Of a stretch of DNA of 47,058 bases, positions 6,499-29,005 are shown in pieces (position 1 is the first letter of the stretch; every line of letters begins with the position of its first letter). The stretch spans positions 1 through 47,058 of the forward strand of contig QCRX01000003.1 in assembly GCA_003209275.1 (NCBI GenBank), read 5' to 3'. Source of the DNA: Prochlorococcus sp. AG-463-P14. Its GTDB lineage: Bacteria; Cyanobacteriota; Cyanobacteriia; PCC-6307; Cyanobiaceae. The notes below the pieces were generated by a model, which saw only the letters and a list, made by a program, of their open reading frames with translations, was not told the DNA's origin and ran no database searches. The position numbers were made by a program, and so were the translations under genes.

Positions 6499-7503
6499 TT
6501 ACAGCCCGGCATCGTTTAGTTGTCGGGCTGCTTCTTCCAAAATTTCTAAACCTGCTGTTTTTTTTTGCGCTTTAACTCCAAAGTCTCTTCTCCATGCTCT
6601 TGCGCCTGGAACTTCTTCAACTAGTTGTAAAAGATGGCGTCCAATATTCCACAGACGTCCATTTTGTTTGAGGTGTTGTTCTGCGTGAGGGATTACCCCT
6701 TTAATCACATCTGATGGTTTGATGTTGATTGCTTTTTCTCCAAAAAGCATTGCATCCATTTTTTGCCAGCGAAGAGGGTGTGAGTATGCGGATCTCCCAA
6801 CCATTGCTCCATCGAATATTTTTAGTGCTTCAAAGCATTCTTCTGGTGTTTCTAGGCCACCATTGAGTTCGATTTTAAGATGAGGTCTTTTTGTCTTTAA
6901 GTCTGCAACTCTTTCATATTGCAAGGGTGGAATAGTTCGATTTTGTTTTGGATCTAATCCTTTTAACCATGCCTTTCTTGCATGAATGGCAAAACGCTGT
7001 GCACCAGCTGAAGAGACTTGATCAACAAATTCTCTTAGCAGTTCATCGCTATCAAGATCATCGATTCCTATTCGATGTTTGATCGTTACATCTAAATCAC
7101 TTGCCTTGGCCATTGCTTCAATACATCGAGCAACATTATTTGGATTGGCCATCATGCAGGCTCCAAAATTCCCTGATTGCACTCTTGGACTGGGACATCC
7201 AACATTTAAATTGATTTCGTCATAACCCCAAGCCTCTGCAATTCGAGCTGCTTCCGCTAATAGTTTTGGGTCATCTCCTCCAACTTGCAAAGCAATGGGA
7301 TGTTCAATTTGGTCAAAATCAAGCAATGCATTTAGGTTTTTGCTGTGATAAAGAGCTTGAGCCACAATCATTTCTGTATAAAGCAAAGCTCTACGACTGA
7401 TCTGTCTCATTAGGACTCTGAAGTGCCTATCTGTGCAATCCATCATTGGTGCAATGCTGAATCGATAGGATTGATGAGTTCGTGGTATGTATTTGTCAAC
7501 CAT
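6499..7503 (-). CDS. dusA: tRNA-dihydrouridine synthase (DusA-type)
   Basis: This FMN enzyme reduces uridines in the tRNA D-loop. The 334-residue product begins with SIAPMMDCTDRHFR, the DusA N-terminal signature, and has LNVGCPSPRVQSGNFGACMM with the catalytic cysteine at residue 103. It also carries the conserved IKHRIGIDDLDS and the FMN-phosphate-binding LNGGLETPEE and DGAMVGRSAY motifs. Length and motif spacing fit DusA rather than DusB or DusC. It is convergent with the RRM gene and divergent from msrB, with 66 bases between the starts. Confidence 0.93.
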   Translation of the reverse strand: MVDKYIPRTHQSYRFSIAPMMDCTDRHFRVLMRQISRRALLYTEMIVAQALYHSKNLNALLDFDQIEHPIALQVGGDDPKLLAEAARIAEAWGYDEINLNVGCPSPRVQSGNFGACMMANPNNVARCIEAMAKASDLDVTIKHRIGIDDLDSDELLREFVDQVSSAGAQRFAIHARKAWLKGLDPKQNRTIPPLQYERVADLKTKRPHLKIELNGGLETPEECFEALKIFDGAMVGRSAYSHPLRWQKMDAMLFGEKAINIKPSDVIKGVIPHAEQHLKQNGRLWNIGRHLLQLVEEVPGARAWRRDFGVKAQKKTAGLEILEEAARQLNDAGL

Positions 7504-9510: not shown

Positions 9511-10299
9511 ATGAGTGGTGAAGTGCCATCCCCATCGCAAAACTCTGAGACTGATGGATCACAATCAGTTCCTCAGCCAGAGATAGAAGCCAAATTGAAT
9601 GAACAGTCCTCTGTCCCTGATGAATCTATTGCTTCTGGGGAAGTCGATATAGAAACTCACCCTCAGTCAGAAACTAAGCCTAAGACTGAAGGAATCCAAC
9701 CCGAAGCTGATTCGGTTGCAGGGACTGCTAAAAATCCGTTGGATAATGAGGCACGGTTACAACAGTTGGAGGAAGAACACGAAACTTTGCGAAGTCAATA
9801 TATGCGGATTGCAGCTGATTTTGATAATTTTCGCAAAAGACAAACTCGTGATAATGATGACTTAAAGCAGCAATTGATTTGTAATACTTTGACTGAAATT
9901 TTACCTATTGTGGATAATTTTGAAAGAGCTCGTCAACAACTAGATCCTCAGGGAGAAGAAGCACAAGCCTTGCATCGCAGTTATCAAGGGCTTTATAAGC
10001 AACTTGTAGATGTATTGAAATTGCTTGGCGTAGCTCCAATGCGTGTAGTTGGTCAAACATTTGATCCAACATTGCACGAAGCTGTTTTGCGAGAACCTAG
10101 CGATGAAAAGCCAGAAGGTACTGTTTTAGATGAAATGCAGCGTGGATATCATCTCAATGGCAGAGTATTAAGACATGCTTTAGTCAAGGTATCTATGGGC
10201 CCAGGATCGCAAGGAGAAAGTTCTTCTCAAACTGATCAAGAGCCAGAGAAATCTTCTTCTATTTCAGACAATAAAAATTCACCTAATTCTGAGGATTAA
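9511..10299 (+). CDS. grpE: Nucleotide exchange factor GrpE
   Basis: GrpE releases ADP from DnaK. The 262-residue protein has an acidic, low-complexity N-terminus of about 85 residues. A long coiled-coil helix follows, containing the family motifs [15 protein letters not shown] and [10 protein letters not shown]. The C-terminal beta domain has [12 protein letters not shown] and [18 protein letters not shown] disordered acidic tail of some 35 residues follows. The ATG at 9511 is clear. dnaJ follows after 45 bases, so GrpE and DnaJ are probably made together; no dnaK is present in the window. Confidence 0.95.
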
Positions 10300-10344
10300 T
10301 GAGATGAGATTTAAATTGAATTTAAAATCTATGGCATCAATGTA

Positions 10345-22776: not shown

Positions 22777-24399
22777 GTGCCTAGTTGTGATTTAGACCTT
22801 ACGTCGGCTGGCTTGGTAAAGGTTTCGTTCCCTTTTGATGCGGTTACTGAGGCTCAGTTGAGAAGCATTCGTCCACGTGGACGACGCCTCGCTCAGGGTA
22901 AAGGGTGGACATTTCCTATATCTGCTGTTGGCAAACTTCAGGAGTCTCTTGGTAACCGTTTTTTGATTAGAGATGATTTAGCTCAGTGGTTGGCTTGGCG
23001 CGAGGACTCTCTTCCTGAACTACCTTCCCCTCGCGAATTATTAGCTAATGCGGATTTTGAAGTTGTTTTAAGTGATGGACGTAGACCACTTAAACATCAA
23101 CTGTTAGGAGCTCGATGGCTTGTATCGAGAAGAGCAGGAATTCTTGCGGATGATATGGGACTAGGAAAAACCTTAACCGCTCTTCTTGCTGCTCGTGTTG
23201 TCGTTAGGTCTGTAAAGGCGAAGGTGATGGTTATTGCACCTGTCGGCTTGCACCCTCATTGGCGGAAAGAAGCTCGTTCTTTGGGTATTCACATTGATTT
23301 GCAAAGTTGGTTTCGTTTGCCAATGGATTTACATCCATCGGGCACAGTTTTAATTGTTGATGAAGCACATTTTGCACAGTCTTTGGATGCAAAGCGAACG
23401 CAATGTTTATTGCGATTAGCTCGCCATCCACGTCTTCGATTTATGTGGATGTTAACCGGGACACCAATGAAAAATGGACGTCCCAGTCAGCTTTATCCCC
23501 TTTTGTTAGCCATGGGACACCCTTTGTCATCTGATCAAAGAGCCTTTGAGCAAAAATTTTGTCAAGGATATTGGCAAGATATTCAAGGAAGGCGAGTTTG
23601 GAATTCTAGTGGGGCAAGTCATTTATCTGAATTGAGTCGTTTAATTAGGCCTTTTATCTTGTATCGCAGTAAGCAGAAATTATTAGGATTACCTCCAAAA
23701 ATTCGTGAAGAACATTCTGTTGCTCTTAATTCAAAAGAATTGCTTGGCTTTGATCATCGATTGCAATTAGCGATTGATGATTATCATCATCGTGTAGAAC
23801 AAGGCTTAGCTTGCTCTAACGCTGAGGCTTTGGCAGTCTTGACTGCATTACGGCAAATCTCTGCGGAATTTAAATTGCCTGCAGTTAGTCAGTTAATAAA
23901 AAAATTAAATGAGGAAAAGAAACCTGTTGTGTTGTTTAGTAGCTTTGTTAAACCCTTGCAACTTATTCAGAGTGCTGTTGGAGGTGAGTTGTTAACAGGT
24001 CAGCAGAAATTACAAGAAAGAGAAGACGTTGTGAGTAGGTTTCAAGTAGGCGAAGTTAATTTGATATTAGCTACTTATGGAGCAGGAGGGTTGGGATATA
24101 GTCTACATCGTGCGAGGCATGTGATTTTACTTGAAAGGCCTTGGACACCTGGAGATGTTGAGCAAGCTGAGGATCGTTGTCATCGTTTAGGCATGGATGG
24201 CCCATTGATCAGTCATTGGTTTCAATTAGGATTTGCGGATCAGCTTGTAGATGCCATAGTTGCGAATAAAGCAGAGCTTATTCAACTACTAATGGGTGTT
24301 AGTCGATGTGTCATAAAACGACAATCTATACCAGCTATATTAAGTAAATGTCTACAAAAATCATTTGACGTGGATTTTACAAGACACATGTCTATTTAA
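22777..24399 (+). CDS. SNF2-family helicase with HARP-like N-terminus
   Basis: The 540-residue protein has a SNF2 ATPase core: motif I ADDMGLGKTLTALL near residue 125, motif II VDEAHFAQ near 193, motif III MLTGTPMKNGRPSQ, and the C-terminal helicase lobe with LATYGAGGLGYSLHRARHVI and EQAEDRCHRLGM. The first ~75 residues (VSFPFDAVTEAQL...GKGWTFPISAVGKLQESL) resemble the HARP domain of SMARCAL1-type annealing helicases. Translation starts at GTG 22777. The gene sits divergent from the HNH nuclease. Confidence 0.88.
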   Translation: MPSCDLDLTSAGLVKVSFPFDAVTEAQLRSIRPRGRRLAQGKGWTFPISAVGKLQESLGNRFLIRDDLAQWLAWREDSLPELPSPRELLANADFEVVLSDGRRPLKHQLLGARWLVSRRAGILADDMGLGKTLTALLAARVVVRSVKAKVMVIAPVGLHPHWRKEARSLGIHIDLQSWFRLPMDLHPSGTVLIVDEAHFAQSLDAKRTQCLLRLARHPRLRFMWMLTGTPMKNGRPSQLYPLLLAMGHPLSSDQRAFEQKFCQGYWQDIQGRRVWNSSGASHLSELSRLIRPFILYRSKQKLLGLPPKIREEHSVALNSKELLGFDHRLQLAIDDYHHRVEQGLACSNAEALAVLTALRQISAEFKLPAVSQLIKKLNEEKKPVVLFSSFVKPLQLIQSAVGGELLTGQQKLQEREDVVSRFQVGEVNLILATYGAGGLGYSLHRARHVILLERPWTPGDVEQAEDRCHRLGMDGPLISHWFQLGFADQLVDAIVANKAELIQLLMGVSRCVIKRQSIPAILSKCLQKSFDVDFTRHMSI

Positions 24400-24782
24400 T
24401 AACTATATCTATTTTCATTCTTACTTTGAGAAGGAGCTTCTATTCTTTCGCTGTCAGATTGAGACGCACCAAATAGGTCGCCTAGATAACTTCCACAATC
24501 TTGGTAACTGTTGGGATCTTGCACTACAGCTTCGATGATCATTACTGCACCATGCTTTGGTGAGGTCTTGAACAGGCTGTTTGTTTGACGTTTGATTACC
24601 GCATAGGCCGCCTTCCAACTCACTTCATGATCATTACCACTAGTTCGCATAAAGCAATAAATCTGAGCTCCTTTTTCACCTGTTTCTGGTACTCCTGCAT
24701 GTCCTAAGGAACCCCATAGGCCTGTGAAAAATATGCCAATTACAGTTAGGGGAAGAGAGATCCAATGTCTATTCCGGGTCAT
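24396..24782 (-). CDS. Secreted protein of unknown function
   Basis: The 128-residue product has a signal peptide (LPLTVIGIFFTGLWGSLGHA), then a soluble region with EKGAQIYCFMRTSGNDHEVSWKAAYAVIKRQ and a second cysteine (YQDCGSYLG). These two cysteines could form a disulfide. The tail is low-complexity. I do not recognise a characterised family. Its 3' end overlaps the SNF2 gene by 4 bases (convergent). Confidence 0.65.
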   Translation of the reverse strand: MTRNRHWISLPLTVIGIFFTGLWGSLGHAGVPETGEKGAQIYCFMRTSGNDHEVSWKAAYAVIKRQTNSLFKTSPKHGAVMIIEAVVQDPNSYQDCGSYLGDLFGASQSDSERIEAPSQSKNENRYSY

Positions 24783-24836: not shown

Positions 24837-25353
24837 TTAGGAAGGATTAATTAGACCTGATATTGAAAGGAATTTAACGACCACTGGTAACACAAGAAGA
24901 ACCGTTATGAGCCTTAGGCATCTACAGCAGCAACTGCTGCACCAACTCCAAACTGTGTTCCTACCAAGCTCATTCCACTTATTTCACCAGGCGCTGCCCC
25001 TAGTAGAGATATAACAGGATTAATTCCTAATAAACGGCTACTCCATAAACCTACGACTATTCCTGACAGGACGAGTGTGATTGTTATTAGTACTGCAGGT
25101 TGCCAGAGAGCTTGCAATTCTTTAAGAGACTCTTTGGTGAGACCTGTTCCAATAATAGTGCCGATACCAATTTCAAGTCCTGTTCTGGTGCCTGGCGGCC
25201 ATTCCGCTATTTCAATTTGGCCGCTCATGCTGATGAACCCTGCTCCTAAAAAGCGCCCGCAAAAGGAGCGGCTGGTATACCTGTGCTTAGAGTTATGAGG
25301 CCTATGGTGGCCCTAGCTAAAAGATATATGAATAGGCTCATGAAAGAAGACAT
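24837..25353 (-). pseudogene. AbrB-family membrane protein gene with two frameshifts
   Basis: Read continuously this locus encodes about 168 residues of an AbrB-family (Gneg_AbrB_dup) integral membrane protein. The piece from 25353 gives MSSFMSLFIYLLARATIGLI... and STGIPAAPFAGAF, then hits a stop in a run of five A on the plus strand (25248-25252). One extra base there restores LGAGFISMSG, which joins the middle frame (25228-24914; GTRTGLEIGIGTIIGTGL, LGAAPGEISGMSLVG). That frame ends in VAAVDA plus a stop at 24914-24916. A second one-base shift continues into LRLITVLLVLPVVVKFLS and a natural stop at 24837-24839. Both repairs yield family-like sequence. It could be a decaying gene or a sequencing/assembly error. 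Confidence 0.8.
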
Positions 25354-25474: not shown

Positions 25475-25771
25475 ATGACCACATCATCAACATCTTGTTC
25501 TTTTAGGATTACACGCACTGCAGAAGATCTTGCACAAACTATTACTTCTCTCTCGCAGAGGTTAGTTAAAATAGAGCAGCGTCAAGAAGCTCTTGAGATG
25601 CAATTGGCTGAATATCAGCAAGAGCCACCTGACGAGGAAATGAGGAGACTTGATGGTGTAGAGCAATTACTCAAGGAGTGCCAAGAGCTTTTAGACAGCT
25701 CTTCGCCAATTTCTAATTTGCAAGACACAAATATCTCCGAAGAGGTACAAGATGACTTTTTAGCTGCTTAA
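25475..25771 (+). CDS. Small coiled-coil protein of unknown function
   Basis: This 98-residue protein is mostly charged, with a predicted coiled coil at about residues 17-70 (heptad-like LAQTITSLSQRLVKIEQRQ). It has a Pro/Ser-rich spacer and an acidic C-terminus. No family is recognised. The ATG at 25475 has plausible coding continuity. It heads a row of three short plus-strand genes. Confidence 0.65.
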   Translation: MTTSSTSCSFRITRTAEDLAQTITSLSQRLVKIEQRQEALEMQLAEYQQEPPDEEMRRLDGVEQLLKECQELLDSSSPISNLQDTNISEEVQDDFLAA

Positions 25772-26513: not shown

Positions 26514-26585
26514 AGCGGGTGACCGGATTCGAACCGGCGACGTCCAGCTTGGGAAGCTGACATTCTACCACTGAATTACACCCGC
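26514..26585 (-). tRNA. tRNA-Gly (anticodon CCC)
   Basis: Read on the minus strand, the 72-base gene begins GCGGGTG (paired with CACCCGC at the 3' end) and has a D-arm with TCAGTGGTAGA. The anticodon loop TTCCCAA lies between paired TCAGC and GCTGG, so the anticodon is CCC, reading GGG glycine codons. The T-arm is CCGGTTCGAATCCGG. The discriminator base is T and no CCA is encoded. It lies alone between a small plus-strand gene and the aminotransferase gene. Confidence 0.93.
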
Positions 26586-26623: not shown

Positions 26624-27781
26624 TTAATTTTTTTCATTGAGTACAACTGAGGCTGCTTCAACTCCGGCGCCCATTTTTGACTCAAGCAGATCCAATGAAT
26701 AGAGAGTTGCTTCTATTGCTGCTATTGCTGTGAGAATATCTCGATCATTTACAAAGCCAAGATGCCCGATGCGAAATACTTTTCCTTTCAAATGATCCTG
26801 TCCTCCTGCAAGGAGAATGTCATATTTTTCTTTGACAGCTTTTCTCAATTGTTCAGCATCAATGTTTTTTGGAGCTACTGCTGTGATTGCAGGACTTCCA
26901 CAACCTTTCGCAGAAAAAACTGGCATTCCCATGGCTTGCATTCCAGTTTGAGCAGCTTTGCTATGCCGAGCATGACGTGCATAGATTGCTTCTAGTCCTT
27001 CTGCTTGCATTATTTCTAATGCAGATTCCAGGGCAAAATACAGATTGACTGCAGGAGTAAAAGGGTTGCTATTTTTTTCGGCAGTTTTTTTGTATGGATT
27101 TAGATCCAGATAAAACTTAGGCAAATTAGATTTTTTTTGGAGTTCCCAGGCTCTTTGACTCAGGGCAACAAAACTCAGGCCAGGTGGCATCATGTACCCT
27201 TTTTGAGAACCTGAGGCGATTACATCTAGCCCCCATTTGTCCATAGGGACATTGCAGGCACCAAGGCTGGTAACACAGTCGGCAATGATTATTGCTTTTC
27301 CATGTGCATGTACATATTGGCTAATTGTTTCGAGGTCGTTTAGTACTCCTGTAGAAGTCTCTGAGTGAGTAATTATTACTGCTTGGATTTGTTTGTTCTT
27401 GTCTGCTTCTAAGGCTCTTCTAAAAGCCTCAGGATCGAGAGCTTCTCCCCAGTTGGCTTTTATGACTTCAACATCAATTTCATACGCTTTGGCCACTTTT
27501 ACCCACCGTTCGCCGAACTTTCCATTACTACCGCAGAGAACTTTATCTCCTTTGCTCAAAGTGTTGATAATTCCAGCTTCCATAGCAGCAGTGCCACTAC
27601 CAGTGATTGTGAGTACATCATGTTTTGTTTGATGGAGCCATTGGAGTTGCTCCGATGTTTTGCTGACAATTGCTTGAAACTCTGTACTTCGATGACCAAT
27701 GGGGTGTTGACCCAAGGATTTCAGTACAGTTTCTGGCACTGGGGTTGGCCCAGGGATCATCAGGGTTAGTTTGTCCTGCAT
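26624..27781 (-). CDS. Class V aminotransferase, serine/alanine-glyoxylate type
   Basis: This 385-residue PLP enzyme is a serine- or alanine-glyoxylate aminotransferase (COG0075), used in photorespiratory glyoxylate metabolism. The N-terminus is LMIPGPTPVPETVL, with HRSTEF. The PLP-binding lysine lies in SGSQKGYMMPPG, and IADCVTSLGA matches the conserved aspartate region. Older annotations call relatives the soluble hydrogenase small subunit. The frame opens at GTG 27796, but ATG 27781 is preceded by GGAG and starts at the family N-terminus. Confidence 0.9.
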   Translation of the reverse strand: MQDKLTLMIPGPTPVPETVLKSLGQHPIGHRSTEFQAIVSKTSEQLQWLHQTKHDVLTITGSGTAAMEAGIINTLSKGDKVLCGSNGKFGERWVKVAKAYEIDVEVIKANWGEALDPEAFRRALEADKNKQIQAVIITHSETSTGVLNDLETISQYVHAHGKAIIIADCVTSLGACNVPMDKWGLDVIASGSQKGYMMPPGLSFVALSQRAWELQKKSNLPKFYLDLNPYKKTAEKNSNPFTPAVNLYFALESALEIMQAEGLEAIYARHARHSKAAQTGMQAMGMPVFSAKGCGSPAITAVAPKNIDAEQLRKAVKEKYDILLAGGQDHLKGKVFRIGHLGFVNDRDILTAIAAIEATLYSLDLLESKMGAGVEAASVVLNEKN

Positions 27782-27883
27782 GTTCTCCAGGATCACAAGC
27801 TTTCTCTTTCAAAATTAGCCTGACAGGTTCCTTTTATCGTTAATTCTTCTCCGAGTTTTAGGGGTTTCACACTGCCCGTATGG

Positions 27884-29005
27884 GTGGCAGCAGCAGCAAG
27901 AGCTGCCACCCAGGCTTTGATTGGAGATCCTTTTATGCGGGATCAACAACTGGAGTTACCTAATGGCAGTGATTCTGTGATAGTTGCAGTTACCTCTGCT
28001 TCGGTGCTTGCAGGTGGTCGTTTGGCTATTGGTATCAGCCATTGTGAATCTGGATTAGGACTTGATCTCACTCGAGGTTTAGAAATATGGACTTGTGTGC
28101 AATGGAATGAGGACAGTGCAGCTTGTGATAGGCAATCAACAATTCAATCAGATCCTTGGTTACATATTGAAGCTGGTATGGGTGTAGGCAGAATTGAATC
28201 AACAGGAGATATCTGCCTTTCTTCTTTTGCGCGTGAATTGTTAGAGCGAAATCTTCGTCCAATAGTTCCCAAGGGACGTAGCTTGAAACTGGAAGTTATT
28301 TTCCCAAAAGGAATTGAATTGGGTGAGCGAACAAGCAATAAAGCTTTTGGTGTTGTTGATGGCTTGGCCGTTATTGGAACACAGGCAGAGACAAATATAA
28401 GTGCCTCACCTAACCAACTAAAAGAAGCTATTGGAGAATTACGAGAGACGTGTCGGGCTTCTGAATTTGATGGTTTTTTGACTTTGGTCCTTGGAGAAAA
28501 TGGCTTAGATTTATCTCTTAATTTGGGAATACCCTCATATTCTTTAATTAAAATAGGTAATTGGGTTGGACCATTACTGGTTGCTGCAGCTGAAGAGGGT
28601 GTTGAGAAACTTTTAGTTTTGGGTTATCACGGCAAACTGGTCAAGCTTGCAGGAGGGATATTTCATACTCATAACCATTTGGCTGATGGAAGAATAGAAA
28701 TTTTAATGGCCCTTGCAGTGGTTGAAGGGTTGCCGTTGAGTGAGATTAAAGGTTTAAGGAAGTCTGCCTCTCTTGAAGAAGCTTTGTTAAAACTCGAGGC
28801 TATTGATCGACCTATGGCTGAAAAGTTGTGGACTAGCCTTGCGCAAGCTGTCGAGGCTCGGAGTTCCTCTTATCTAAAGCGTTATGGTGATTGGTCAATG
28901 TCGATTGGAGCCGCTTTGTTTGATCGCCAGAGGCATTTGAGATGGGTTGGACCCAACGGTAAGAAGATCCTTGAGTGTTGGGAGGTCAATCTGGCGGACC
29001 ATTGA
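27884..29005 (+). CDS. cbiD: Cobalt-precorrin-5B C1-methyltransferase CbiD
   Basis: CbiD methylates C1 of the corrin ring in anaerobic cobalamin synthesis. The product (373 residues from GTG 27884) shows [40 protein letters not shown] and [26 protein letters not shown], typical of CbiD. The reading frame shows conserved sequence before this GTG ([11 protein letters not shown]), but no ATG, GTG or TTG lies in frame between it and the upstream TGA at 27821. Only ATC 27836 and CTG 27872 are near-cognate. The annotated GTG is therefore probably inside the gene. guaA follows, 58 bases downstream. Confidence 0.88.

Follow-up and report, generated by a model that had tools for sequence, protein, structure and literature searches.

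The window, a stretch of 47,058 nucleotides, is contig 3 of a draft assembly of Prochlorococcus sp. AG-463-P14 that comprises 1.136 Mb in 73 contigs and is 64% complete. Its closest named matches are Prochlorococcus single-cell genomes; the search for relatives turned up no further genome from its genus. An origin from a symbiont, the Ornithocercus cyanobacterium, was also considered and discarded, as a literature search gave nothing in its favour. Reading of the open frames shows that positions 25353–24837 of the minus strand encode a membrane protein of the AbrB type (TIGR03082 Gneg_AbrB_dup/PF05145) split over three frames. We refer to this putative pseudogene with two −1 frameshifts (24837–25353, minus strand) as abrB-A. 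The N-terminal piece (25249–25353, minus strand) begins with the ATG at 25353–25351, reads MSSFMSLFIYLLARATIGLITLSTGIPAAPFAGAF and closes at the TAG at 25248–25246. This stop adjoins a run of five A at 25248–25252 (T5 on the coding strand), where the first frameshift lies, at codon 35. The middle piece continues in the second frame (24914–25249, minus strand) and ends at the TAA at 24916–24914; an open reading frame of 104 aa starts within it from the ATG at 25228. The C-terminal piece (24837–24917, minus strand) reads LRLITVLLVLPVVVKFLSISGLINPS in the third frame up to the stop at 24839–24837. It is preceded by the second frameshift, at codon 147, where one base is missing before the TAA.

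A frameshift-aware alignment with an intact orthologue gives 124 identical residues out of 170 and contains exactly two −1 events, at these two codons, with no further stops or gaps. The initial annotation had described an AbrB-type gene in three minus-strand frames, joined at these places and free of other stops, and in these respects it was correct. It had also proposed a repaired protein of about 168 residues. The protein is indeed unbroken when two bases are added, but the full reading from the first ATG has 172 residues, and 168 are obtained only from the second Met. Similarly, the two lesions were taken to be simple one-base losses, one of them in a homopolymer; the two −1 events stand, but the first need not be homopolymer slippage. 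The coding strand reads T-TTT-TAG at site 1, and because the orthologue L040 reads GCTCTTTTG there, the T5 could equally stem from the loss of a C, without slippage in an A/T run (one orthologue is given as GCT-CTT-TTG). Site 2 reads GAT-GCC-TAA, which is neither homopolymeric nor slippery.

The family assignment was examined by profile search. The middle piece matches PF05145 with 49.7 bits (cut-off 29.2; E 3.3e-13) and TIGR03082 with 67 bits (E 1.7e-18). Being incomplete, the piece stays under the full-length threshold of 94.7 for TIGR03082; for comparison, an intact orthologue reaches 115 bits. The sequence thus matches both families, and the domain as a whole is spread over three frames instead of one. 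Together with the 124 identities, these matches establish that the repaired pieces are homologous to the AbrB family, and on these comparisons a chance occurrence of the three-frame reading is excluded. The cyAbrB transcription factors and Bacillus AbrB are DNA-binding proteins and have only the name in common with abrB-A, which belongs to a membrane protein family.

The surroundings of abrB-A are conserved. The order guaA, 373-aa ORF, SGAT-like aminotransferase, small ORFs, abrB, DUF6554, SNF2 helicase, HNH and SDR-like gene is kept, with some gaps, across 37 relatives. In the window, the downstream neighbour is an intact, conserved DUF6554 (PF20191) gene (24396–24782, minus strand). Upstream lie a small ORF that is conserved in this position in relatives (25475–25771, plus strand), an intact and conserved class V aminotransferase gene (SGAT-like; 26624–27796, minus strand) and the 373-aa ORF between guaA and the SGAT-like gene (27884–29005). 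With SGAT on one side and DUF6554 on the other, abrB-A has kept its usual position, in which the gene is intact in many relatives. Directly downstream of the SGAT-like gene we also observed a tRNA-Gly (CCC) gene (26514–26585, minus strand); ORFs called across this gene are probably not real.

Apart from the frameshifts, abrB-A differs from its homologues at conserved residues. Gly14Arg, in the N-terminal piece, and His145Asp, in the middle piece, fall in columns that are invariant in 70 of 70 intact homologues. The middle piece also bears Leu144Val and Gly124Glu, the latter at a nearly invariant glycine. Among the 70 intact homologues, 60 show no change at otherwise invariant columns and four show two or more. 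We regard these missense changes as supporting evidence of moderate strength, not as proof, for relaxed constraint; the relatives, at ∼73% protein identity, are too distant for codon-based dN/dS. abrB-A has two marks of a pseudogene, namely lesions that disable it relative to intact orthologues and changes at invariant residues.

The same locus in the relatives, which the initial annotation had proposed to check, turned out to hold a decaying gene in many and an intact one in many others. Intact orthologues (G126/L040, G021/L046, G011/L057, G007/L061, G029) share family and neighbours with abrB-A and are up to 77% identical to it in the middle piece, but unlike abrB-A they have one unbroken frame of ∼170 aa. 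Copy A is broken, decaying or erased at the locus in 22 of the 37 relatives, with lineage-specific lesions. It is broken in its syntenic place in G015, G076, G031 and G010, as seen by frameshift-aware alignment, and in G064, G036, G095 and G101. These eight relics represent the same gene in the same place, disabled by frameshifts and stops, but their lesions differ from those of abrB-A and most are far more decayed. In 13 genomes (G003, G006, G016, G028, G062, G065, G069, G075, G078, G082, G087, G100 and G107) copy A was undetectable at the locus. One further copy, in G026 (L088, 5354–5854), is open but deviant: seven otherwise invariant columns are altered in it and it has an in-frame deletion, a case of missense decay without a frameshift. 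G014 was peculiar in that copy A is missing at the usual place (L100) and an intact A is found on contig 13 (3772–4266), which means that the gene changed its place or was regained; its closest kin in the gene tree is the copy of G017. Mapped onto a phylogeny of four neighbouring genes, the states of copy A require at least eight changes, or 12 losses without regain, counts that are approximate as the tree backbone is resolved only in part.

Many relatives carry a second, similar gene, copy B. In the gene tree, groups A and B are split by a branch with an SH-aLRT support of 100. The window copy falls with A, and both this grouping and its conserved place (small ORF/SGAT to DUF6554) assign it to the abrB-A orthologue group; a few intermediate, B-like copies lie on the B side of the branch. 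In genomes that are at least 90% complete, loss of A always goes along with a retained B or B-like copy (12/12) and absence of B with an intact A (6/6), while three genomes hold both copies (Fisher p 0.0015, uncorrected for kinship). As far as gene content can tell, this distribution is what redundancy predicts. Copy B was not found in the window's own genome, in an assembly that is 64% complete, and the incomplete genomes G006, G028 and G064 yielded no intact copy of A or B. We consider it most likely that loss of A was tolerated through redundancy with B.

Since the window comes from a fragmented draft, the gene might be intact in the cell and both one-base losses might be errors of sequencing, amplification or assembly, one of the options left by the initial annotation. 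We surveyed 776 kb of the same assembly, comparing 416 genes with one complete relative. In-frame stops from the frameshift scan were not counted, as nearly all lie upstream of true starts or past true ends, and a short ORF of doubtful status (L170) was left out. Four genes (rpoA, obgE, a umuC-like gene and abrB) clearly change frame internally; lesions near gene ends can escape this survey, and the second abrB lesion was in fact missed. Both rpoA (L182, contig 28, near 6801–6805) and obgE (L183, contig 29, near 10296–10300) contain one extra G, giving G8 where the frame needs seven. The proteins encoded by rpoA and obgE are indispensable, and these frameshifts are therefore probably assembly or amplification errors, which shows that this assembly does have indel errors. 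The umuC-like gene (L070, 17906–19136, contig 4) is locally deleted around residue 315–328, with a change of frame, and is possibly a second pseudogene. The abrB lesions are of another kind than the errors seen: the error-type indels observed are confined to G8 runs, the 395 kb of aligned coding sequence from the same assembly contain 1,076 A5/T5 runs, none of them with a frameshift, and the codon-147 site is no homopolymer. Moreover, with roughly one error per 200 kb of coding DNA, a 517-base gene would hardly be expected to contain two of them, and the lesions are accompanied by missense changes at invariant residues and by decay of the same gene in many relatives. We therefore consider the error explanation unlikely; the lesions would then be present in the DNA of the living cell.

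Programmed or phase-variable slippage, also raised by the initial annotation, would keep the gene usable. At site 1, T-TTT-TAG makes a −1 ribosomal slip from TTT conceivable, perhaps at a low level. Site 2 (GAT GCC TAA) offers no re-pairing for such a slip and no repeat, which leaves recoding unable to yield the whole protein, and intact orthologues have neither a run of five nor a slippery run at site 1. The two shifts thus do not both lie at slippery or repetitive sequence that is kept in relatives, and since conserved residues have been lost as well, slippage is very improbable. Hardly any weight can be given to the idea that the 104-aa ORF from 25228 encodes a truncated but working protein. 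No other open piece is longer, and most of the domain is retained. However, the N-terminal part is absent, as is the RLITV of the HAVRLITV motif, although intact homologues have both; the ORF also bears Gly124Glu and His145Asp and has no similarly shortened counterpart among the relatives examined.

Taken together, abrB-A is very probably a recently inactivated gene of a Prochlorococcus/Synechococcus-like cyanobacterium, one that would have become dispensable after gain of B. Recent inactivation, which the initial annotation had listed among its options, is supported by the changed invariant residues, the clean A5/T5 runs and the decay in many relatives. In the sequence of events that we propose, a lineage would acquire the second paralogue, copy B, and many descendants could then do without copy A in the ancestral place, which would be disabled by missense changes and small indels and finally be erased. 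The window would represent an early stage, with two one-base losses and a few changes at conserved residues. Whether such gain and replacement made A dispensable across the picocyanobacterial radiation, with about a dozen independent losses and all stages of decay at one locus, we put at even chances. For abrB-A itself, an ordinary young pseudogene, produced by ordinary genome shrinkage in a repeatedly lost gene, is the most likely description.

Prochlorococcus genomes have been reduced by loss of dispensable genes, and A/T homopolymers have been raised as possible sites of indels (PMC10837832; PMC3940434); non-essential genes turn into pseudogenes and are later deleted (PMC10837832). On its own, abrB-A adds another pseudogene to a lineage whose genomes are shrinking. 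With its relatives, it forms a natural series of one gene at one locus, from intact through two lesions and many lesions to erased, and the second paralogue is the likely reason behind it. Such a series could help to place losses in time and to weigh drift against selection as the force behind genome reduction in Prochlorococcus.

The case of abrB-A fits what is published on paralogue loss and genome reduction in Prochlorococcus. Deletion of paralogues in the course of this reduction was reportedly described by Luo et al. in 2011, in a paper cited by PMC3940434 and PMC10837832, as a process in which, likewise, one of two related genes is lost. Here, in contrast, the intermediate stages of a single gene are visible side by side.
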